Assembly: GCA_020052615.1 (NCBI GenBank)
Contig: JAGVOT010000100.1
Location: forward strand, 1 to 64,000
Direction of reading: 5' to 3'
DNA: 64,000 bases
Source: Nitrospirota bacterium
GTDB lineage: Bacteria; Nitrospirota; UBA9217
Shown here one piece after another: positions 6,359-51,453 of the stretch. Each line of letters starts with the position of its first letter. Position 1 is the first letter of the stretch. The notes under the pieces are model-generated. The model saw only the letters and a program-made list of their open reading frames with translations. It made no database searches and had not been told where the DNA came from. The translations under genes were made by a program, and so were the position numbers.

Positions 6359-6476
6359 CCGGGCCTTTCAGGCTGTTACTGGGTCCCCGTTCCCCGATTT
6401 CAGCCTTCGAGGACAAGTTTCACGGGGATGACGAATTAGGCTGCAAGCGGTAAAAAAGTTCAGCAGGAATGATATT

Positions 6477-7928
6477 ATGACCAGCGAAAAGATTCTCATA
6501 GTCGACGACGAAGAAAGCGTCCGGTGGGTGCTGAAGAAGGCCCTGGAAAAGGAGGGCCTCGAAGCGGTCCTCGCGAAGGACGCCGCCGAAGCATTTTCGC
6601 GCCTGCAGGAAGGCGGCATTGCCGTGGTCCTCATGGATATCCGCATGCCGGGCATGAGCGGACTCGACGCCCTGGAGAAGATCCGGAAGGAAGGACGGAA
6701 CATCTCGGTCATCATCATGACCGCCCAGAGCACGATGCAGAACGCCATCGAGGCCATGCGCCGCGGCGCCTACGACTACATCACCAAGCCCTTCGACCTC
6801 GACGAGGTAAGCATCCTGGTCAAAAAGGCGCTGGACGTCCGGCACCTGAGCGAAGAGGTGGACACGCTCCGGGCGGAAGTGCGGGAAAAATACGAAGGCG
6901 GGCTCGTCGGCGCCACGTCCGCCATGCAGGAGATCTACAAGACCATCGGCCGCGTGGCCGAGAGCGACGCCACCGTGCTGATCCACGGCGAAAGCGGGAC
7001 GGGCAAGGAACTGGTCGCCCGGGCAATCCATTTTCACAGCAAGCGGTCGGGACGGCCCTTTATCGCCGTGAACTCAGCGGCAATCCCCTCCGAGCTCCTG
7101 GAGAGCGAGCTCTTCGGACATGAGAAGGGGTCCTTCACCGGCGCAGTGGCCCGGAAGCTCGGGAAGTTCGAGGCTGCGGCAGGCGGCACGCTCTTCCTCG
7201 ATGAGATCGGCGACATGAGCCTTTCGCTTCAGGGCAAACTTCTCCGCGTCTTGCAGGAAAGGGAGTTCGAACGCGTCGGCGGGACCGAGCCCATCAGGAC
7301 CGATGTCCGGGTGATCGCCGCTACCCACCACAATCTCGAAAAGATGGTGCGCGAGAACAAGTTCCGCGAGGACCTGTTCTACCGACTGAATGTCATCCAG
7401 ATCAATATCCCTCCGCTCAGAAAGCGCAAGGACGACATCGTCCCGCTGGCCGAGCATTTCCTCCGGAAATACCGCGACGGGCGCGGGGCGACCTCCAAGA
7501 CGTTCACCCCTGAGACGCTCAAGGCCCTGCGCGCCTACGACTGGCCGGGGAACGTGCGCGAACTGGAGAACGCGGTCCAGCGCGCGGTCACGCTTGCCCA
7601 GGGCGACAAGATATTCCCCGATGCCCTGCCTCCGCAGATCTTCAAACCCGGGCAGGGGGTCACCATATCGTTCGAGAATTTTCTGGAAGAAAAGCTCGCT
7701 GACCTCGTGGACCGGCTCGGCGGGCTCGATCATGGCGATATCTATTCCCTGGTGATCCAGCGCGTGGAGAAGCCGCTCATCACCCTGGTGCTCAGGAAGA
7801 CCGAGGGCAACCAGGTGCGCGCCGCGAGCCTCCTCGGCATCAATCGGAACACGCTGAGGAAAAAGATCAGGGAGCTGGGGATCAAGGGCCCGTTCAACGG
7901 CGAGGAAGAGAAGGACGATGAGGAGTGA
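6477..7928 (+). CDS. ntrC: Nitrogen response regulator NtrC (sigma-54 activator)
   Basis: Enhancer-binding response regulator, 483 residues. The receiver domain (1-120) has acidic DDEE near the start and phospho-Asp in VLMDIRMPG (about 54). The AAA+ domain (about 145-380) has Walker A GESGTGKE (about 169), Walker B GGTLFLDEIGD and an arginine-finger region FREDLFYRLNV. A Fis-type helix-turn-helix lies at about 435-470 (GNQVRAASLLGINRNTLRKKI). The sigma-54 contact loop reads GSFTGA instead of the usual GAFTGA. The likely targets include the sigma-54 promoter at 2594. The gene ends in an acidic tail (GEEEKDDEE) and a strong terminator follows. Confidence 0.93.
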   Translation: MTSEKILIVDDEESVRWVLKKALEKEGLEAVLAKDAAEAFSRLQEGGIAVVLMDIRMPGMSGLDALEKIRKEGRNISVIIMTAQSTMQNAIEAMRRGAYDYITKPFDLDEVSILVKKALDVRHLSEEVDTLRAEVREKYEGGLVGATSAMQEIYKTIGRVAESDATVLIHGESGTGKELVARAIHFHSKRSGRPFIAVNSAAIPSELLESELFGHEKGSFTGAVARKLGKFEAAAGGTLFLDEIGDMSLSLQGKLLRVLQEREFERVGGTEPIRTDVRVIAATHHNLEKMVRENKFREDLFYRLNVIQINIPPLRKRKDDIVPLAEHFLRKYRDGRGATSKTFTPETLKALRAYDWPGNVRELENAVQRAVTLAQGDKIFPDALPPQIFKPGQGVTISFENFLEEKLADLVDRLGGLDHGDIYSLVIQRVEKPLITLVLRKTEGNQVRAASLLGINRNTLRKKIRELGIKGPFNGEEEKDDEE

Positions 7929-41709: not shown

Positions 41710-41766
41710 CCACCCTCCTGGTTGCAGAAGTGGGCGCGATAGTCATTCTTAAGAAGCACTTACAGA

Positions 41767-41800
41767 AAGTCCTCTGCGATGTCCCGCAGGGGACTTTTAT
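41767..41800 (+). terminator. Terminator of the glutamate synthase operon
   Basis: 12-bp stem with one G-U pair, aagtcctctgcg (41767-41778) / cgcaggggactt (41785-41796), loop atgtcc, followed by a T-rich run. Confidence 0.9.
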
Positions 41801-41970
41801 TATTAATAAAATCAAAGTCTTATCCGAGAAAAGAACCTCCGGAGCCCTTCGTCTATGAGGCGGTGGGGAAGCCGCCCAATACGGTAGGCGTACAAAGTAG
41901 CCGACTAAAAATGAGACAGAAAATTATGTTGTTGAAATAAATAAATATATTAGTTCCGACAACTATTAGC

Positions 41971-41999
41971 TTGACGTTGTATGGTTCCGGTGCTAGAAT
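41971..41999 (+). promoter_or_regulatory. Sigma-70 promoter of the DUF4382 lipoprotein gene
   Basis: TTGACG (41971-41976), 17-bp spacer, TAGAAT (41994-41999) with a TGC extension before the -10. It predicts a leader of about 46 nt. Confidence 0.78.
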
Positions 42000-42030
42000 T
42001 TTGCAAGAATCGGGCAGCAGTCTGTCGGAA

Positions 42031-42049
42031 GTATCACCCGAGGTGATAC
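42031..42049 (+). promoter_or_regulatory. Hairpin sequestering the ribosome binding site
   Basis: GTATCACC (42031-42038), cga, GGTGATAC (42042-42049): a perfect 8-bp stem whose right arm contains most of the Shine-Dalgarno AGGTGA used by the ATG at 42052. It may be an RNA switch or a DNA operator. Confidence 0.6.
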
Positions 42050-42051
42050 CT

Positions 42052-43161
42052 ATGCTAGTGTTCAGACCGGAACGAACTGAATCCTTTATTATTTCACTCC
42101 TTATCGCTTCGCTCCTCCTCCTTTCATGCGGTGTTGGCGCCGGACCCGATCCCCAGCCGGGCAGTGGAAAAGGCAAGGTCTCGCTCTTCATTACGGATAA
42201 TATATCGTTCTACAAACAGGTAGTATCGACGATCACCGGCGTCCGCTTGGTGAACTCCGGGACCGGAGGTGTCTGCGAGGTGATGGTCGATCCGCTCACG
42301 CTCGACATCGCGAACCTCACGAATCTGGCCCACTATGCAAGCCTCGCGGAATGCCCCGATGGCCGCTATAACAGGATAGACATCGATGTTCGCAAGGGCG
42401 CGTTCCTGATGGACCAGCTGGATGCGACATCAGCCTGCTCATTCACATCGTATATAGACGAAGTCGGCAATCTAAAGCCGCTAACATGCGATCAGGGAAC
42501 CGACATCTGCTCGTTCAGCATACGAGGTGGCTCACGCGACGGATCAGTGACGGTGCAGGAGGATCGGTATAACGACCTGGGCATTGATTTTGACCTCAAA
42601 GAATTCAGGGTGGACGACTTCGGGGATCCGGCTGACTGTTCCGTGACGTTGGTGGCCGCAGTGGTGAGTGCCGCTGACATGAACAGCAGCGGAAGGTCTC
42701 ACGAGGTTACGGGGACCGTACGGGACCTTGCTTCCGGCGCACGCACCTTTACGCTGCTCGCGGGAGGCCTGTCGCTGACCGTCGATTATTCGGGGATCAA
42801 TCCGGCGCTCCAGAATAACATCGATGACCTGCTGCTGGCAGCGCAGAGCGACGGCTATCCGGTGATCGTCCAGACCGGCGGCATTGCCATTGAAACAGGG
42901 GCGATCGCGGCAAACCGTATCTTCATGAAGGCTCCAGGAACAGTATCGGGTGTTCAAGACCAACCCCAGTGGCTCTTTACCCTCGTCTCCCAGCCAGACA
43001 AGCCGATCGCGGGAAGCTATAAACCGCCTGCAGTGGTTGAAGGCACCTTCGTCGACGGCGCTTGGGTGAACGTGCGGTTCGACGGTTATGATGCCGCAGC
43101 CGAGAAATACCTTGCTGCATCGGTCGAGGTGCTGCCCGCCGGCATGATCATTGATGATTAA
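42052..43161 (+). CDS. DUF4382-family lipoprotein
   Basis: 369 residues. A lipoprotein signal (FIISLLIASLLLLSC) ends with Cys at about residue 25. The body resembles DUF4382 proteins: GKVSLFITDNISFYKQVVSTITGVRL, a DPLTLDIANLTNLAHYASLAE segment, and GRYNRIDIDV. The C-terminal half (SGRSHEVTGTVRDLASGARTFTLLAGGLSLTVDYSG) looks like a DUF5666-type beta domain. It is predicted at the periplasmic or outer surface; the role is unknown. The ATG at 42052 follows AGGTGA, which is itself inside a hairpin. The gene has its own promoter and terminator. Confidence 0.78.
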   Translation: MLVFRPERTESFIISLLIASLLLLSCGVGAGPDPQPGSGKGKVSLFITDNISFYKQVVSTITGVRLVNSGTGGVCEVMVDPLTLDIANLTNLAHYASLAECPDGRYNRIDIDVRKGAFLMDQLDATSACSFTSYIDEVGNLKPLTCDQGTDICSFSIRGGSRDGSVTVQEDRYNDLGIDFDLKEFRVDDFGDPADCSVTLVAAVVSAADMNSSGRSHEVTGTVRDLASGARTFTLLAGGLSLTVDYSGINPALQNNIDDLLLAAQSDGYPVIVQTGGIAIETGAIAANRIFMKAPGTVSGVQDQPQWLFTLVSQPDKPIAGSYKPPAVVEGTFVDGAWVNVRFDGYDAAAEKYLAASVEVLPAGMIIDD

Positions 43162-43191
43162 GGGAACGCAGGTAGAGATTATTTTGATCTG

Positions 43192-43214
43192 AAAGGGGCG
43201 AAAGCCCCTTTTTT
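43192..43214 (+). terminator. Terminator of the DUF4382 lipoprotein gene
   Basis: 8-bp stem AAAGGGGC (43192-43199) / GCCCCTTT (43204-43211) with a GAAA tetraloop and six T. Confidence 0.93.
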
Positions 43215-43252
43215 GTTATTCCGCGCCGGGTGGATTTGCTTCAAAGCACGTT

Positions 43253-43270
43253 TGACGTCTCGGCACGTCA
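43253..43270. promoter_or_regulatory. TGACGT-N6-ACGTCA inverted repeat upstream of the TonB receptor
   Basis: Perfect 6-bp arms at 43253-43258 and 43265-43270, 6 bp apart, about 79 bp upstream of the receptor start. Candidate operator; it does not look like a Fur box. Confidence 0.4.
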
Positions 43271-43348
43271 GCCGCAGCACAACGATCCCGGAACAACCGA
43301 TCGCTCGATCATCCCTCTGACCGCATTGTGTTCTGAAGGAGAAGAACG

Positions 43349-45460
43349 ATGCCTCTCTCCCATTCGTTCGAAAGTTCCTCCAGTATCCTCCTGGTCCTGC
43401 TGATATGTCTCATCGCGGCAGGCGCTCCTGTACGGGCTGAAGAGAGCATCCCGGTCAAAGAGGAGGCGTCCCAGGACCAGGCGCAGGGAGCAGGGGCGAT
43501 CCAGGAGGGAACGAGGGAACCGCGGAAAAATCATGACCTGCAGGATCTCAGTCTGGAAGAGCTCATGGACATCGAGGTTCAGACGGTCGTCAGCGCGTCA
43601 CGATATCGGCAGAAGGTGAATGAAGCTCCCGCCTCGGTGACCATCATCACTGCACGGGATATCCGTAAATTCGGTTACCGGACCCTGGCCGATATCCTGG
43701 GAAGCGTGCGGGGATTTTCCACCACCTACGACCGCAACTATCAATATGTCGGTGTCAGGGGGTTCGGAAGGCCCGGAGACTATAATACGCGCATCCTGCT
43801 GCTCGTGGACGGTCACCGACTGAATGACGCCATTTATGACAGTGCCGCCATCGGAACCGAATTCGTGCTGGATGTCGATCTTATCGAACGCGTGGAGGTC
43901 ACCCGTGGACCGGGTTCATCGCTCTATGGCAGCAATGCGTTCTTTGCCGTCGTGAACGTGATCACCCGTCGTGCGAAGGACCTGGGAGCCGTTGAGCTGT
44001 CCGGAGAGGCGGGAACTCAGGGAGCGTATAAGGGACGCCTGAGCTATGGGGCATCGAGACAGCACGGCAAGGATTTTCTCCTGTCGGTGAGCGGTTTCAC
44101 GAGAGCCGGCGACCGTCTGTATTTTCCAGAGTTTGATCCCGAAAACCCCATGGCAGACCCACGGGCAGGCAACGGTGGATATTCCGACAATGGAGACCAC
44201 GACAAGTACCAGAGCGGGTACGCGAAGTTCGAACACCGGGGATTTCAGCTTGCCGCTGCTTATATCGAGCGGACGAAAGGCATCCCGACCGCTTCGTTCG
44301 GAACCGATTTCAACGAACCGGGAAATCGTACCAGAGATGGCCGGGGCTACGTTGATCTGCAGTACGAGACCCGCCTCGACGGAGGCATGCAGCTCGACAT
44401 TCGGACCTATTACGACCAGTACCGCTATGAGGGCGATTACCTCTACACCGGGACGTTGAACAAGGATCGGGCCATCGCATCATGGTACGGCGGGGATATC
44501 CGGATAACCACGCGGCTTCTGAACGCTCACCATGTCATCATCGGAACCGAGTATGAGGACAGGATCAAGCAGGACCAATACAACGCTGATGTGTCGCCTG
44601 CGTCCGTGTACCTCGATGACCATCGTAATTCGAGCACATGGGCAGCTTACGCGCAGGACGAGATTTCCATCTCACCGATCTTTCTTCTCTATGCGGGCAT
44701 TCGCTACGACCATATCAGCACCTTCGGCGGAACGACGAACCCTCGCATAGCAGCGATCATCACGCCCATCGAACACGGAACGCTCAAATTACTCTACGGC
44801 AAAGCGTTCCGGGCGCCCACCGTGTACGAGTTGTACTATGAAGCGCCTCCATCGATGCTGAACAATCCAGCCCTGCAGCCAGAGCGGATCGAGACCTATG
44901 AACTGGTGTACGAACACAATCTCGGAAATGGTCTGCGCGCGGTCGCAAGTCACTACAGCTACAGCATCAAGAATCTCATTACCCAGACGTATGACCCCTC
45001 CAGCGGCACCACCTCCTTCCAGAACCAGGAACGCGCCGAAGCCGAGGGCACGGAGCTCGAGGTCCAGAAGAGCTGGCCGAACAGCGCCGACATCAGGTTC
45101 AGCTACGCATTCCAGAAGGCGGTCGACCCCAAGACTGGAGAACTGCTGACCAACTCACCGAAGCATCTTGCGAAACTTAACCTTGTCGTGCCGATCATCA
45201 AGGACCGTTTCTTCACCGGGATCGAGGAGCAGGTCACGGGTCCGAGGATGACCACCGCGGGGCGGAGTACAGAGGGTTTTGCCGTAACGAACCTAACCCT
45301 TTTCGGCAGCGGCAGACAACGCACGATGGAGGCATCGCTCAGTATATACAACGTCTTGAACAGGAAGTATGAAGATCCCGTATCAAGCGACCTGTTCCCC
45401 ATTGACAGCGTGCAGCAGGATGGACGGTCCATCCGGGTGAAACTGACCTATGCATTTTAA
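43349..45460 (+). CDS. TonB-dependent outer-membrane receptor
   Basis: 703 residues. Signal peptide to about residue 30 (ILLVLLICLIAAGAPVRA). An N-terminal stretch DLSLEELMDIEVQTVVSASRYRQKVNEAPASVTIIT resembles the TonB-box/plug entry of the subfamily often paired with YfiR and sensory kinases. The plug domain (about 85-205) contains GYRTLADILGSVRGFS and VTRGPGSSLYGSNAFFAVVNVITR. The 22-strand barrel ends in IRVKLTYAF with the terminal Phe. It probably imports a small ligand or acts as a signal receptor; the substrate is not predictable. GAAGGAG precedes the ATG. It overlaps the yfiR-like gene by 11 bp. Confidence 0.92.
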   Translation: MPLSHSFESSSSILLVLLICLIAAGAPVRAEESIPVKEEASQDQAQGAGAIQEGTREPRKNHDLQDLSLEELMDIEVQTVVSASRYRQKVNEAPASVTIITARDIRKFGYRTLADILGSVRGFSTTYDRNYQYVGVRGFGRPGDYNTRILLLVDGHRLNDAIYDSAAIGTEFVLDVDLIERVEVTRGPGSSLYGSNAFFAVVNVITRRAKDLGAVELSGEAGTQGAYKGRLSYGASRQHGKDFLLSVSGFTRAGDRLYFPEFDPENPMADPRAGNGGYSDNGDHDKYQSGYAKFEHRGFQLAAAYIERTKGIPTASFGTDFNEPGNRTRDGRGYVDLQYETRLDGGMQLDIRTYYDQYRYEGDYLYTGTLNKDRAIASWYGGDIRITTRLLNAHHVIIGTEYEDRIKQDQYNADVSPASVYLDDHRNSSTWAAYAQDEISISPIFLLYAGIRYDHISTFGGTTNPRIAAIITPIEHGTLKLLYGKAFRAPTVYELYYEAPPSMLNNPALQPERIETYELVYEHNLGNGLRAVASHYSYSIKNLITQTYDPSSGTTSFQNQERAEAEGTELEVQKSWPNSADIRFSYAFQKAVDPKTGELLTNSPKHLAKLNLVVPIIKDRFFTGIEEQVTGPRMTTAGRSTEGFAVTNLTLFGSGRQRTMEASLSIYNVLNRKYEDPVSSDLFPIDSVQQDGRSIRVKLTYAF

Positions 45461-46043
45461 TGTTGCCTCATACCGTCGGTGCCTTGCCATGATCGTGGCC
45501 TCAGTCCTCGTTCTGTGTCTCGAACAGAGCGGGCGCGCAATTGCGGCGGAGGGGGGCGCGCGATCTTCAGGCGAATATCAGGTTAAGGCCGCGTTCGTGT
45601 ATAATTTTATCAAATTCGTAACATGGCCGTCGGGAGGAGAGACGTCCGCAGCAGGGGTCGTTCGTCTCTGTATCCTGGGAGAACTTCCTGATGCCGCCCC
45701 CTTCGACGATCTTGAAGGACAGGAACTCCTGGGAAAGCGCTTGCACCTTGTATATCTCAAGGAACCGCAGGAAGCGCGTTCATGCCAGGTCCTGTTCATA
45801 TCGTCGTCACTGTCGCGCCGGCTTGCCGAAACGCTGGAACTGGTTCGAGGGCATCCTGTCCTGACCGTCGGCGATACGGACGGGTATGCGAAGCGGGGGG
45901 TCATGATCAATATGTACCTCGAGAACAGGCGAGTGAGGTTCGAGATCAATGCAGAGACGGCGAGGCTCGCGGGTCTGCGGATCAGCACCAAGCTTCTGAG
46001 CCTTGCCGTCGCCGTTCACGGCACGGCAAGGACGGGAAAATGA
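45450..46043 (+). CDS. YfiR-family periplasmic protein (DUF4154)
   Basis: 197 residues. N-terminal signal segment (MIVASVLVLCLEQSGRAIA), then YQVKAAFVYNFIKFVTWPSG, the signature of DUF4154. Further family features are VRLCILGE, QVLFISSS, VLTVGD...GVMINMYLENRRVRFEIN and LRISTKLLSLA. YfiR in Pseudomonas is a periplasmic inhibitor of the diguanylate cyclase YfiN, acting on its periplasmic CHASE8-type domain. The next gene here has a CHASE8-like domain on a histidine kinase. The start lies within the end of the receptor gene, so translation is coupled. Confidence 0.88.
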   Translation: MHFNVASYRRCLAMIVASVLVLCLEQSGRAIAAEGGARSSGEYQVKAAFVYNFIKFVTWPSGGETSAAGVVRLCILGELPDAAPFDDLEGQELLGKRLHLVYLKEPQEARSCQVLFISSSLSRRLAETLELVRGHPVLTVGDTDGYAKRGVMINMYLENRRVRFEINAETARLAGLRISTKLLSLAVAVHGTARTGK

Positions 46044-46059
46044 AGGAAAGGCGGATCGC

Positions 46060-47526
46060 ATGAGGACCCTGAAGCGGGAACTCATCCTGGTGAACATTAC
46101 CGCGACCGGAGCAGCGCTCCTGGTGGCCATCGCGCTTCTGCTCGGTTCGGAACTGCGCACCTGGAAAGCTGCGATGATCCGGGATATCACTATCAAAGCT
46201 GACATCATCGGCAGCCAGTGCACGGCCGCCTTGACCTTTAATGGATCGAAAGACGCGGAAGAGGTCCTCAGGGCGCTTCAGGTGGATGCACAGATCGAGT
46301 ATGCCGCGGTCTACAGCGTGGACGGTACGGTATTCGCCGTATACCGCGGCAGGAGCGGTATGCGGCAGGTCCCGACAGGACCGCCCGCGGAAGGCCATCT
46401 GTTTACGGCCGCCCATCTGGACCTTACGCGCCCCATTGTCCTGCACGGCGAGCAGATCGGCTGGATTGCAATACGGGCGAACCTCGATCAGCTGCGCACG
46501 CTGCTGCTCCACTATGGATTTGGTTCTGCAGCGGTTCTCCTGCTTGCTCTGGCAGTGTCATCGGTGATGCTTTCCCGGCTGCAGAAAAGCATCACGGAAC
46601 CGGTGACCGACCTGGTAGGGTTGATGGAGACGGTTTCGGGGGACAAGGACTACACCCGACGGGCGGTCGCAAGGGGGCCGAAAGAGCTCATATCGCTGAC
46701 GAGAAGCTTTAACGAAATGCTGGGGACCATTCAGAGCCGGGACCGCGAACTGGAAAGCTCGCTTGCTGAACTGAAGAAAGCCTACGGGAAGCTCGAGGAC
46801 CTGGACCGCCTGAAGTCCGATTTCATTTCGATCGTATCGCACGAGCTCCGGACGCCGATAACGTCGATCAAGGCGTTCGTGGAGCTTATCCTGATCAAAC
46901 CGGACATGAGCGCGGACCGGAAGATGAAGCTGCTGGAGACGATCAACAGCGAGACCGATCGCTTATCACGGCTGATCGGAGATCTGCTCGACCTGTCGCG
47001 CATCGAATCGGGCGTTATACTGTGGCGGGACCAGGAGATCGCTGTCGAAGACGTGATAAGGACGGCAGTCGCCGGCATCATTCCCCTCGCAAAGATGAGG
47101 GATATCCAGATCAATGAAACGGCCGAGGACGGACTGCCGACGCTTTACGCGGATCGAGACCGCATCATGCAGGTTGTGATGAACCTGCTGTCGAACGCGG
47201 TTAAATTCATTCAGCCGGGTGGAAGGATCAGCATTTCGACGAAACGAACCAATGATCCTTTGGGGATCGCTGTCGCGATAGCCGATACGGGACCAGGAAT
47301 ACCGTCCGGTGATCTGGGCCTGATCTTCGACAAGTTCCAGCGGTCCGGGGATTTGCTTACCGGAAAAATCGAAGGGACGGGACTCGGCCTTGCAATCTCG
47401 CGTGAGATCGTTGATCACTATGAGGGGCGTATCTGGGTGGATAGCGAAATAGGCAAAGGAAGCATCTTCACCTTCACCATTCCGGTGAAACGGACATCGG
47501 GCATCTATCAAGGGATTGTGAAGTGA
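46060..47526 (+). CDS. CHASE8-HAMP sensor histidine kinase
   Basis: 488 residues. TM1 at about 10-30, a periplasmic CHASE8-like domain about 35-145 (IKADIIGSQCTAALTFNGSKDAEEVLRALQ), TM2 about 150-172, HAMP about 172-225, HisKA with His about 260 (SIVSHELRTPITSIKAF), and HATPase about 365-480 (NLLSNAVKFIQ, DTGPGIPSGD, GTGLGLAIS). Membrane-bound kinase with no receiver domain and no response regulator gene nearby. The ATG at 46060 is 16 bp after the YfiR stop; GAAGGAAAGG lies upstream. The likely input is the YfiR protein in the periplasm. Confidence 0.88.
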   Translation: MRTLKRELILVNITATGAALLVAIALLLGSELRTWKAAMIRDITIKADIIGSQCTAALTFNGSKDAEEVLRALQVDAQIEYAAVYSVDGTVFAVYRGRSGMRQVPTGPPAEGHLFTAAHLDLTRPIVLHGEQIGWIAIRANLDQLRTLLLHYGFGSAAVLLLALAVSSVMLSRLQKSITEPVTDLVGLMETVSGDKDYTRRAVARGPKELISLTRSFNEMLGTIQSRDRELESSLAELKKAYGKLEDLDRLKSDFISIVSHELRTPITSIKAFVELILIKPDMSADRKMKLLETINSETDRLSRLIGDLLDLSRIESGVILWRDQEIAVEDVIRTAVAGIIPLAKMRDIQINETAEDGLPTLYADRDRIMQVVMNLLSNAVKFIQPGGRISISTKRTNDPLGIAVAIADTGPGIPSGDLGLIFDKFQRSGDLLTGKIEGTGLGLAISREIVDHYEGRIWVDSEIGKGSIFTFTIPVKRTSGIYQGIVK

Positions 47527-47555
47527 TCCCACCTTGAGAACAGGTGCGGCAGCAG

Positions 47556-47590
47556 GCCGTCATCATATAAAGATGACGGCTTTGTATTTG
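47556..47590 (+). terminator. Terminator after the CHASE8 kinase
   Basis: Perfect 9-bp stem GCCGTCATC (47556-47564) / GATGACGGC (47572-47580), loop atataaa, followed by tttgtatttg. The T-run is interrupted. Confidence 0.8.
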
Positions 47591-47611
47591 TTCCCTCAGC
47601 GTTTCCGAATG

Positions 47612-47640
47612 TTGACTTCGCTATTGAGGTCTGTTAGTGT
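47612..47640 (+). promoter_or_regulatory. Possible promoter of the GGDEF-like gene
   Basis: TTGACT (47612-47617), 17-bp spacer, TAGTGT (47635-47640). Good -35, moderate -10. Confidence 0.45.
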
Positions 47641-47789
47641 ACTGCCCAATAGGGGCACGAATACGTCCTGACCTTATGATCAAGACAGAAACAGTGCGAG
47701 GTCATCAACGTGTGTCATGGCCCGCAAAGCAAAGCATCCCGAAGAACGGCACAGCTGCAAAGCAGATGCATCATGGAGAACGGGAGCAG

Positions 47790-49169
47790 ATGATAATTCC
47801 TTTTAAGAGGAGCGTCCTTGCCCGGCTCTTTGACTGGAAGCCTTTTTCCCGGCTTACTATCGCCGGCAAAATCCTCGTCGGCTATGCGGTCCTGGTCGTT
47901 CTTACCGTCACGGTGGTCAGCTATGTCCTGATCAGCCTTTCCAACATCAACCGTTTGAGCAGGAGCATCGTTTCGGTCAACATTCCCGGCGACACGGCCG
48001 CAGGGAGGCTGGTCGAAGCACTTCTCGCCCAGAATACCTACGAAAAAAAGTATCTTATCCTCGGGAGGCAGGAGCTCAGTCATCTTTACTGGGAGCGGGC
48101 AAAGGAATTCGGCACGAACCTCGAGAAATTGAAACGGGTCGGTCAGGCAGGTGACCTGCCGCTGGAGGCCATCGAAAGGCTGCACGCGCGATACGGCGAC
48201 CTCTATCTCGAAATGACGGGATACGTCCGGAGAGGCAGGATAGCCGCTGCCGAGGAACTATCGAATGGCGATATGAGCAACGTCGTGGAACGGTTGCTCG
48301 AGCTCATACGGTCGATCCCGCCGAAGCTCAGGGCGTCACGGGATGAACAGATGCGGATGATCGATTCAGCGACGCGATCGACGCTGCGAACGACGATCCT
48401 CCTCTGCACGCTCAGTACGGTCTTCAGCATATTTGCAAGCCTGCTCGTTACCTTGTATATAGCATCATCGCTTCGCAAACTCAAGAATGCAGCCGCCCAT
48501 GTGGCCGAAGGCGACTTCGAATACGGTTCACAGTTGCATGCTGAGGATGAGATCGGCGACCTGGACCGTGCGTTCGATCGCATGCGGGCGAGACTGAAGA
48601 AGCTCGAGGAGATGTACCGCGATGCGAGTCCATTGACCCGTCTTCCGGGCGGCATAGCGATCGAACAGAATATTCAGGGACGCCTGGACCGAAGAGAACC
48701 GATCGCGTTGTGTGTGATGGACATCGACAACTTCAAGTCGGTCAACGACCGTTATGGCTATGCCCGGGGGAATGAAGTGATCATTGAGACGGCGAGGATC
48801 ATCGACCTTGCAACGAAACAGCACGGAACGCCGACGGACTTCGTTGGACATATTGGAGGAGACGATTTCGTCGCGATTACCAGTCCCGAACGCGTCCAGT
48901 TCGTGTGCGATGCGATCATCGCACAGTTCGACGGGAAGGCACCTCAGTATTACAGCGGCGAAGACAGACGGAACGGGTATATATCGGGTAAATCCCGGCT
49001 GGGCGTTGAAATGAATTTCCCCCTGATGACCATCAGCATCGCGGTGGTCACGAACCAGCAGAGAAGGTTCAGCAACCCCCTGGAAATGTCAGCGGTCGCG
49101 ATCGAACTGAAGGAATATGCAAAGACATTCCCGCGAAGCCTGTATGTGGTGGACAAACGAAGATCGTAA
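47790..49169 (+). CDS. Membrane HAMP protein with GGDEF-like domain (GGDDF variant)
   Basis: 459 residues. TM1 about 25-48 (ILVGYAVLVVLTVTVVSYVLIS), a helical periplasmic four-helix-bundle sensor about 50-200, TM2 about 202-222, HAMP about 222-275, and a GGDEF-like domain about 285-455 (SPLTRLPGGIAIEQ, CVMDIDNFKSVNDRYGYARGNEVI, FVGHIGGDDFVAI). The signature is GGDDF rather than GGDEF/GGEEF. The usual Asp that reads guanine (GD in GHxxGD) is Asn (RGNEV), and no RxxD inhibitory site precedes the motif. Diguanylate cyclase activity is uncertain. The start at MIIPFKRSV is the best fit; an ATG eight codons earlier is possible. Confidence 0.82.
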   Translation: MIIPFKRSVLARLFDWKPFSRLTIAGKILVGYAVLVVLTVTVVSYVLISLSNINRLSRSIVSVNIPGDTAAGRLVEALLAQNTYEKKYLILGRQELSHLYWERAKEFGTNLEKLKRVGQAGDLPLEAIERLHARYGDLYLEMTGYVRRGRIAAAEELSNGDMSNVVERLLELIRSIPPKLRASRDEQMRMIDSATRSTLRTTILLCTLSTVFSIFASLLVTLYIASSLRKLKNAAAHVAEGDFEYGSQLHAEDEIGDLDRAFDRMRARLKKLEEMYRDASPLTRLPGGIAIEQNIQGRLDRREPIALCVMDIDNFKSVNDRYGYARGNEVIIETARIIDLATKQHGTPTDFVGHIGGDDFVAITSPERVQFVCDAIIAQFDGKAPQYYSGEDRRNGYISGKSRLGVEMNFPLMTISIAVVTNQQRRFSNPLEMSAVAIELKEYAKTFPRSLYVVDKRRS

Positions 49170-50217: not shown

Positions 50218-51453
50218 TTATTGCGGGGATGGAGCCAGTTTGCGCTTTACGATCGCGCGAAAGAAGACTGCTCCTGAGATCAGTCCGCCCAGGGCGAAGG
50301 TGAGGGGAGCATGAAGCCAATGGGCGGCGGTCCCGGCGAAAAGACTGCCGAACGGGGTGAGGCCGCCGAAGGACATGGTGTAGAGGCTCATCACCCTGCC
50401 GCGCAGACGGTCTTCGGTGTTCAACTGGACCGTTGTATTGGCCATACCAAAGAAGATGATCATGCAGAAACCGGTCAGGAACAGCAGGAAGGCCGTGACC
50501 CCATACGATCGCTGGACCCCGATGATGATCAGGAAGATCGAGAGCCCCATGCCTCCGCCGAGCAGAAAAGCGGGATTCGGACCAAGGCGGCTCATGACCG
50601 CCAGCGAGACGGAGCCGACCAGCGCGCCGGAACCGAAGGACGACATGAGAAAACCGAACGCCGCGGCATCGAGATGGAGCTCGGTCCTGGTGAAGACCGG
50701 AACCAGGACATTGAAGTTCACGCCGAACACGCTCACCACCGCAACAAGGGAGATCGTGGTCATAAGGATGGGGGTCCCTTTGATATATCCGATGGCCTCG
50801 CCCATGTCCTTCAGCACGTCATAGGACGGAGGCGACCTCCGGACCGGCTCTTGAACGGTCATAGCGAGGAGCCCCGCGATGACGGCAAGGTAGCTCAAAC
50901 CGTTCATGAAAAAGCAAAATGCCGTGCCGGCGGCGGATATCAGGAGACCCGCGACCGCAGGGCCGATGGCGCGTGCCGCGTTAAAGATCGAAGAGTTCAG
51001 CGCTATTGCGTTCATCAGGTCCTCTTTCCCCACCAGTTCTATGAGATAGGACTGTCGCGCCGGCATATCAATGGTATTCACGACACCAAGGAGCGTGGCA
51101 AGGACCGCGAGATGCCAGTACCGGACCGATCCTGTCCAGACCAGGAGGGCGAGGATGAACGCCAGTCCCATAAGGGCGGCCTGGGTCCAGAGGATGATCT
51201 TTCGCTTCGGGAAATAGTCGATGAATGGACCGGTAAAGAACGAAAGGAACAGCATGGGCAGGAACTGGAGGGCTGAGACAACACCGAGCTTGATGGACGA
51301 CTGGGTAAGGTCCAGCACCAGCCATGCCTGGGCAACGGTCTGCATCCAGGTGCCGATAAGCGAAACGAGCTGGCCGGTCCAAAAGAGGCGGAAATTGCGA
51401 TGGCGGAGGGAACGAAAAAGCGCCTCCAGTTCAGAAGTGAGTCCCATGATCAC
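50218..51453 (-). CDS. MFS exporter (DHA3-like)
   Basis: 411 residues, about 12 hydrophobic helices, major facilitator superfamily of the MFS_3 / enterobactin-exporter-like type. It opens LFRSLRHRNFRLFWTGQLVSLIGTWMQTVAQAWLV, the typical signature of this group. The inter-domain loop (QEPVRRSPPSYDVLKDMGEAIGYI) lies near residue 205. The substrate is unknown. A GTG start at 51453 is chosen because an extended -10 (TGCTATACT) lies 6 nt before it, matching the leaderless geometry of other genes; an ATG two codons later is the alternative. Confidence 0.87.
   Translation of the reverse strand: MIMGLTSELEALFRSLRHRNFRLFWTGQLVSLIGTWMQTVAQAWLVLDLTQSSIKLGVVSALQFLPMLFLSFFTGPFIDYFPKRKIILWTQAALMGLAFILALLVWTGSVRYWHLAVLATLLGVVNTIDMPARQSYLIELVGKEDLMNAIALNSSIFNAARAIGPAVAGLLISAAGTAFCFFMNGLSYLAVIAGLLAMTVQEPVRRSPPSYDVLKDMGEAIGYIKGTPILMTTISLVAVVSVFGVNFNVLVPVFTRTELHLDAAAFGFLMSSFGSGALVGSVSLAVMSRLGPNPAFLLGGGMGLSIFLIIIGVQRSYGVTAFLLFLTGFCMIIFFGMANTTVQLNTEDRLRGRVMSLYTMSFGGLTPFGSLFAGTAAHWLHAPLTFALGGLISGAVFFRAIVKRKLAPSPQ

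Follow-up and report, generated by a model that had tools for sequence, protein, structure and literature searches.

In a 64,000-nucleotide stretch of a Nitrospirota bacterium genome (lineage UBA9217; assembly GCA_020052615.1, contig JAGVOT010000100.1, positions 1 to 64,000; hereafter, the window), genes for a TonB-dependent receptor, the periplasmic protein YfiR and a CHASE8-HAMP-HisKA-HATPase histidine kinase follow one another as consecutive open reading frames (ORFs) on the forward strand. This triad is a member of a recognised, partly described and barely studied kind of locus, not a new system. Its products probably form an envelope-spanning relay in which YfiR gates the CHASE8 kinase and the receptor would serve as the input. 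YfiR has been studied almost solely as a repressor of diguanylate cyclases in pathogens, which our counts suggest to be a minority use: across several phyla, its usual partner is a CHASE8 kinase, and a TonB-dependent receptor often precedes the pair.

The preliminary description of this DNA had read the three genes as what looks like a rewired version of the YfiBNR module, in which the YfiR-CHASE8 input is joined to a kinase and an outer-membrane receptor feeds it; it also mentioned a separate GGDEF gene further downstream, by implication as part of the module. ORF coordinates and Pfam agree with the gene arrangement given there: the receptor and YfiR ORFs overlap by 11 bp (45450-45460), and 16 bp lie between the YfiR stop and the kinase ATG at 46060. 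Because of this overlap and short gap inside the triad and the terminator-like hairpins at both of its flanks (Table 1), the three genes probably make up a transcription unit of their own, and the placement of the receptor gene in one predicted unit with yfiR and the kinase gene holds.

Table 1. Features of the receptor-YfiR-kinase locus and its flanks (window coordinates)
Feature	Coordinates	Strand	Basis and remarks
DUF4382 protein gene	41971..43161	+	Pfam; start uncertain; accompanies the triad, sits before the terminator-like hairpin
Intrinsic-terminator-like hairpin with T run, strong	43191..43212	+	Between DUF4382 and receptor genes; z -4.07
TonB-dependent receptor, plug and beta-barrel, 703 aa	43349..45460	+	Pfam Plug 1.6e-21, TonB_dep_Rec 1.3e-39
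YfiR (DUF4154, YfiR/HmsC) periplasmic protein, TOL_0243-type branch, 197 aa	45450..46043	+	Pfam 1.4e-43
VRFEIN motif of YfiR	45933..45950	+	Alignments; F164/E165 of the window YfiR; corresponds to the F162/E163 region of P. aeruginosa YfiR, putative contact with the YfiN sensor
Sensor histidine kinase, transmembrane (TM)-CHASE8-TM-HAMP-HisKA-HATPase_c, 488 aa	46060..47526	+	Pfam, structure model
CHASE8 periplasmic sensor domain	46180..46473	+	Pfam; sole CHASE8 found in the genome
AALTF motif in CHASE8	46225..46239	+	Counterpart of the YfiN AAVVF patch, putative YfiR contact; its Phe is F60 of the kinase
Intrinsic-terminator-like hairpin	47554..47582	+	Directly 3' of the kinase gene, 5' of the GGDEF gene; z -3.1
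HAMP-GGDEF protein	47637..49169	+	Degenerate HIGGDDF, GYxxGN; backbone gene, predicted own transcription unit

Pfam confirms DUF4154 in YfiR and CHASE8, HisKA and HATPase_c in the kinase, so that the joining of a YfiR-CHASE8 input pair to a kinase output stands. The sensor domain is indeed CHASE8 (1.4e-14; 54.6 bits against a cut-off of 27), followed by a weak HAMP match (20.8 bits, below the Pfam cut-off of 25); a sensor other than CHASE8, which the preliminary description named as a refuting outcome, is thereby ruled out. HisKA (8e-20) and HATPase_c (3.4e-28) form the output, with intact H, N and G boxes (SHELRTP, NLLSNA, DTGPGIP and GTGLGL), and Pfam gives no GGDEF domain on this polypeptide. 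No response-regulator gene adjoins the kinase gene; within the window, a receiver gene was found at one distant place only, 6432-7925, beside another kinase gene. In the receptor, Pfam lists the plug and barrel families only, with no N-terminal STN signalling domain.

The AlphaFold model of YfiR (predicted local distance difference test, pLDDT, 88.6) has as its best match the crystal structure of P. aeruginosa YfiR (4zhu_B; TMt 0.81, 23% identity), and its nearest non-YfiR folds are solved periplasmic substrate-binding proteins. The redox-active disulphide C71-C110 of the P. aeruginosa protein is kept as C74 and C112. According to a proposal of Malone et al. (2012; PMC3375315), YfiN binds YfiR via AAVVF on its periplasmic domain, and the contact surface of YfiR is a hydrophobic patch near F162; YfiR residues of this putative contact have been named there and in PMC4887326. 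V and F of the patch are kept in the window YfiR, the L183 equivalent being unaligned, and in the alignment of paired loci the F162-equivalent position is Phe in 104 of 138. Among other YfiR ORFs, those of loci L036, L228, L136 and L160 are, as called, either much extended at the N terminus (by up to ~310 aa) or seemingly truncated.

The preliminary description had proposed a search for further triads of this kind, and the triad recurs in tens of loci in several phyla. Neighbourhoods were read with local hidden Markov models built from window and E. coli queries, with a subset checked by Pfam. Window-like YfiR sequences were the queries for eighty named GTDB loci, which are thus biased towards this branch, whereas for the Nitrospirota and Gammaproteobacteria samples the Pfam family was the criterion and neighbours were ignored, the gammaproteobacterial loci being part of the matches. 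Of 296 Nitrospirota genomes, 53 contain the YfiR family (PF13689), 52 of them above cut-off; a class sample of 274 genomes around a Thiobacillus genome (Gammaproteobacteria in GTDB) yielded it in 39. Among 178 distinct loci, 139 have a CHASE8 gene immediately after YfiR, with a median gap of 1 nt and an overlap in 67; a receptor gene immediately precedes YfiR in 104, overlapping in 31 of these. The CHASE8 partners that were placed (n=138) comprise 113 of kinase type, 18 of GGDEF type and 7 untyped. YfiR with a CHASE8 kinase is the main YfiR arrangement in the sampled Nitrospirota, Acidobacteriota, Desulfobacterota and Gammaproteobacteria. Within the kinase type, 74 partners include a receiver domain themselves. 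A gene for a REC (receiver)-GGDEF protein adjoins the unit in 15, and 13 have no adjacent receiver gene; the window belongs with the last.

Individual loci illustrate the range of outputs. At L063, the receptor and YfiR genes are followed by one for a CHASE8-PAS-GGDEF-EAL protein, L079 has a HisKA_3 type kinase, and in the window's family (L053; same-family relative G048), CHASE8-kinase, REC and REC-GGDEF-EAL proteins are encoded in a row (all by Pfam). In Geomonas limicola and G. silvestris, YfiR is likewise accompanied by a CHASE8 kinase, and at the G. silvestris locus L136 by the receptor too. According to the local models, a single protein at L235 contains CHASE8, a kinase core, three REC domains, GGDEF and EAL. 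A natural one-protein fusion, YfiR-PAS-HisKA-HATPase-REC, is encoded at L248 (3912-6629, reverse strand) without CHASE8; it has a long, probably coiled linker. On the CHASE8 tree, parsimony places 13 changes of the GGDEF label, of which 3 are forced by well-supported branches. Outputs have thus likely been swapped on CHASE8 repeatedly, the tree leaving the number and direction of the swaps unfixed.

YfiR and CHASE8 look like near-obligate partners in their genomic distribution. Among the 296 Nitrospirota genomes, CHASE8 occurs above cut-off in 53 and YfiR in 52; both are present in 52, YfiR alone in none and CHASE8 alone in one (G250), with the co-occurrence spanning 33 genera (Fisher p 1.6e-57, relatedness ignored). 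The Phe of the CHASE8 motif is invariant in all 138 YfiR-paired domains. Fifteen CHASE8-like domains from genomes that lack YfiR served as a control: 3 have this Phe, and none has the full AA..F motif. In a mirror-tree comparison, YfiR distances track those of CHASE8 (r 0.68) much more closely than those of the kinase core of the same polypeptide (r 0.16).

Several results weigh against a relay built on this partnership. Because most of the control domains score below the Pfam cut-off, which sets them apart in further respects, and similarity was the criterion for collecting the paired set, the Phe contrast is supporting, not decisive. Once close relatives are thinned and partners shuffled within phyla, the YfiR-CHASE8 value is reached by 45 of 500 shuffles, and the mirror-tree result, being weak after thinning, is treated as suggestive only; the signal is absent in the 13 gammaproteobacterial loci, and a within-genome test of paralogue co-evolution, which had 10 pairs only, gave no informative signal. 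The second disulphide (C145-C152), reported to be important for folding of P. aeruginosa YfiR, is absent from the window YfiR. Finally, about 40% of YfiR loci have no same-strand receptor gene directly upstream (some of them at contig ends), and the receptor, frequent in this position across phyla, is therefore common but not essential.

The claim that the rewiring is exceptional does not survive comparison with published work. Kinases are the partners in 113 of 138 cases, and kinase outputs were already described in 2012: many distant systems swap the GGDEF domain of YfiN for GGDEF-EAL, HPT or sensor histidine kinases, nearly all of these systems lacking YfiB, and the YfiR-YfiN[PAS] modules are reported as widespread and modular (PMC3375315). 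The kinase-output version of that module resembles the window locus: YfiR is accompanied by a kinase with a YfiN-like periplasmic domain, and YfiB is lacking. The word 'TonB' is absent from the text of PMC3375315, and the association with a receptor is not described there. Models for the triad exist in NCBIfam 20.0: NF053590 for the receptor (TOL_0244), NF053591 for the YfiR-like protein (TOL_0243) and NF053592 for the YfiR-associated kinase (HK_near_YfiR_like). Gene content and order of this set, the order being taken from the model names, equal those of the window. Among triad-specific NCBIfam models, the window proteins are closest to these three, with all scores below the curated cut-offs (receptor, 151.8 bits against 645; YfiR, 115.8 against 125; kinase, 181.7 against 194), whereas a Nitrospirota relative, L058, passes the YfiR cut-off with 156.9 bits. 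In the literature searched, we found no experimental account of a receptor-YfiR-kinase triad.

Compared with YfiBNR, TpbB and AwsXRO of P. aeruginosa and E. coli, the window likewise encodes a periplasmic YfiR followed by a CHASE8-HAMP transducer, and the putative contact residues (AA..F of CHASE8, F162/E163 of YfiR) are shared. The output of YfiBNR is GGDEF, whereas that of the window is HisKA-HATPase; the predicted operon of the window has the TonB-dependent receptor gene and no adjoining gene for YfiB, an OmpA/Pal lipoprotein, and the window has no match to a model derived from E. coli YfiB. The window YfiR also differs in the missing second disulphide and in being closer to the TOL_0243 model than to the YfiBNR-type model NF053586 (47.6 bits against a cut-off of 85; E. 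coli YfiR scores 168 bits).

Adaptors resembling periplasmic binding proteins are known to gate a membrane kinase or a cyclic di-GMP (c-di-GMP) enzyme in TorT-TorS, LuxP-LuxQ and NspS-MbaA. In those systems the adaptor is a full periplasmic binding protein and the unit lacks a TonB-dependent receptor, whereas the window adaptor is YfiR. TonB transducers of the FecA/FecR type signal across the envelope via an N-terminal STN domain and an anti-sigma factor; in the window, no STN is listed on the receptor and a kinase follows. FecA-type signalling was rejected for want of a listed STN domain.

The triad appears to be part of a larger, four-gene block. In G058, a genome from another genus in the family, the order DUF4382-receptor-YfiR-kinase is identical to that of the window, and in a genome of the same genus (G041) all four genes are missing, with a stretch corresponding to ~41710-47596 of the window. 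Because the block is present in order in the one and wholly missing from the other, the four genes, judged from these genomes, come and go as one, whether by gain or by loss. The DUF4382 protein, to which no function is assigned, thus accompanies the triad in a second genus despite the intervening terminator-like hairpin. In G041, the MFS gene found near the block in the window (50218-51453) is also absent at that place.

From the gene unit, its domains, the near-obligate pairing of YfiR with CHASE8 and the conserved contact residues, all of which can be read from the sequences, we infer how the relay would work. Periplasmic YfiR would bind the CHASE8 domain of the kinase through VRFEIN on its own side and AALTF on the other, the hydrophobic patches proposed for YfiR and YfiN. 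The activity of the kinase would depend on the YfiR-bound state, most likely through repression by YfiR. The receptor would give the input: it might bring in a ligand that is sensed by YfiR, or it might pull YfiR off the sensor in the way of YfiB in YfiBNR. As output, the kinase would phosphorylate a response regulator encoded elsewhere, a role that a REC-GGDEF(-EAL) protein may fill in some relatives. The natural fusion at L248, the gene row in G048 and the parallel module described below also speak for such a relay. If the receptor does drive YfiR, TonB receptors without STN would have a route for signalling to the cytoplasm, and YfiR, whose natural signal is unsettled, would gain a testable input.

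Much of the same evidence could also describe YfiR and the CHASE8 kinase as a two-part sensor of redox state or envelope stress, with the receptor merely co-transcribed as a target of the same regulation. The near-obligate YfiR-CHASE8 pairing fits this explanation, as do the conserved redox-active cysteines and the presence of the receptor directly upstream in just 104 of the 178 loci. However, the adjacency of the receptor recurs in many phyla, with overlap of the genes in 31 of 104 cases, and CHASE8 distances also track receptor distances within phyla, to a degree that none of 500 shuffles attains; we regard such a sensor as rather unlikely. Same-strand neighbours are common in general, but a chance adjacency of unrelated genes is excluded for practical purposes, because the triad order recurs in tens of loci over several phyla.

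The preliminary description also implied that the downstream GGDEF gene belongs with the module, which would make receptor, YfiR, kinase and GGDEF protein a single c-di-GMP pathway. The gene does start only 110 bp after the kinase gene on the same strand, and REC-GGDEF genes adjoin 15 of 113 kinase-type loci elsewhere. However, a terminator-like hairpin separates it from the kinase gene, Pfam finds no REC domain in its product, and the GGDEF motif is degenerate (HIGGDDF). Moreover, homologues occur in family members without YfiR, and in G041 the GGDEF gene (81% identity) comes right behind the glutamate-synthase genes (92-95%), ahead of the DUF1523 gene (83%) and selB-selA (92-93%), with no receptor, YfiR or kinase gene in between. 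Being kept in a genome without the triad, the GGDEF gene is assigned to the backbone; given this position, the hairpin and the missing REC domain, it was rejected as the output of the triad, and the single pathway is very unlikely. Thus, of the rewired-module proposal, the input pair, the kinase output and the receptor in the unit are retained, and the exceptional status and the membership of the GGDEF gene are not. In the GGDEF protein itself, GYARGN stands where GHxxGD is expected, and the GGDDF form is conserved in its relatives across the family, which suggests that they constitute a GGDEF subgroup of their own that may be non-canonical.

A parallel module in the genome of the window (L298; G000:C125:2226-7297) consists of genes for a second receptor, 54% identical to that of the triad, an overlapping ABC_sub_bind protein and a sensor-HAMP-GGDEF-EAL protein, and the order of receptor and ABC_sub_bind genes is also seen in G041, G076 and G005. 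Thus, one genome has two adaptor families, YfiR and ABC_sub_bind, in the position that links TonB receptor and membrane transducer in gene order. By analogy, the parallel module supports a general receptor-adaptor-transducer scheme, and the window receptor may likewise feed YfiR. In a broader version, which we put forward tentatively and would not yet bet on, TonB receptors might constitute a general class of envelope-spanning sensor: a periplasmic binding-protein-like adaptor (YfiR, or a full ABC_sub_bind protein in sister modules) would relay the ligand state of the receptor to a single-Cache transducer of exchangeable type (kinase, hybrid kinase or GGDEF-EAL), and YfiBNR would be a specialised offshoot in which an OmpA-like lipoprotein replaced the receptor.

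Tandem YfiR genes are found at L041, L051, L142, L215 and L245, where some are repeats of a receptor-YfiR pair and several have no CHASE8 gene close by, hinting that several receptor-YfiR inputs may converge on one kinase.

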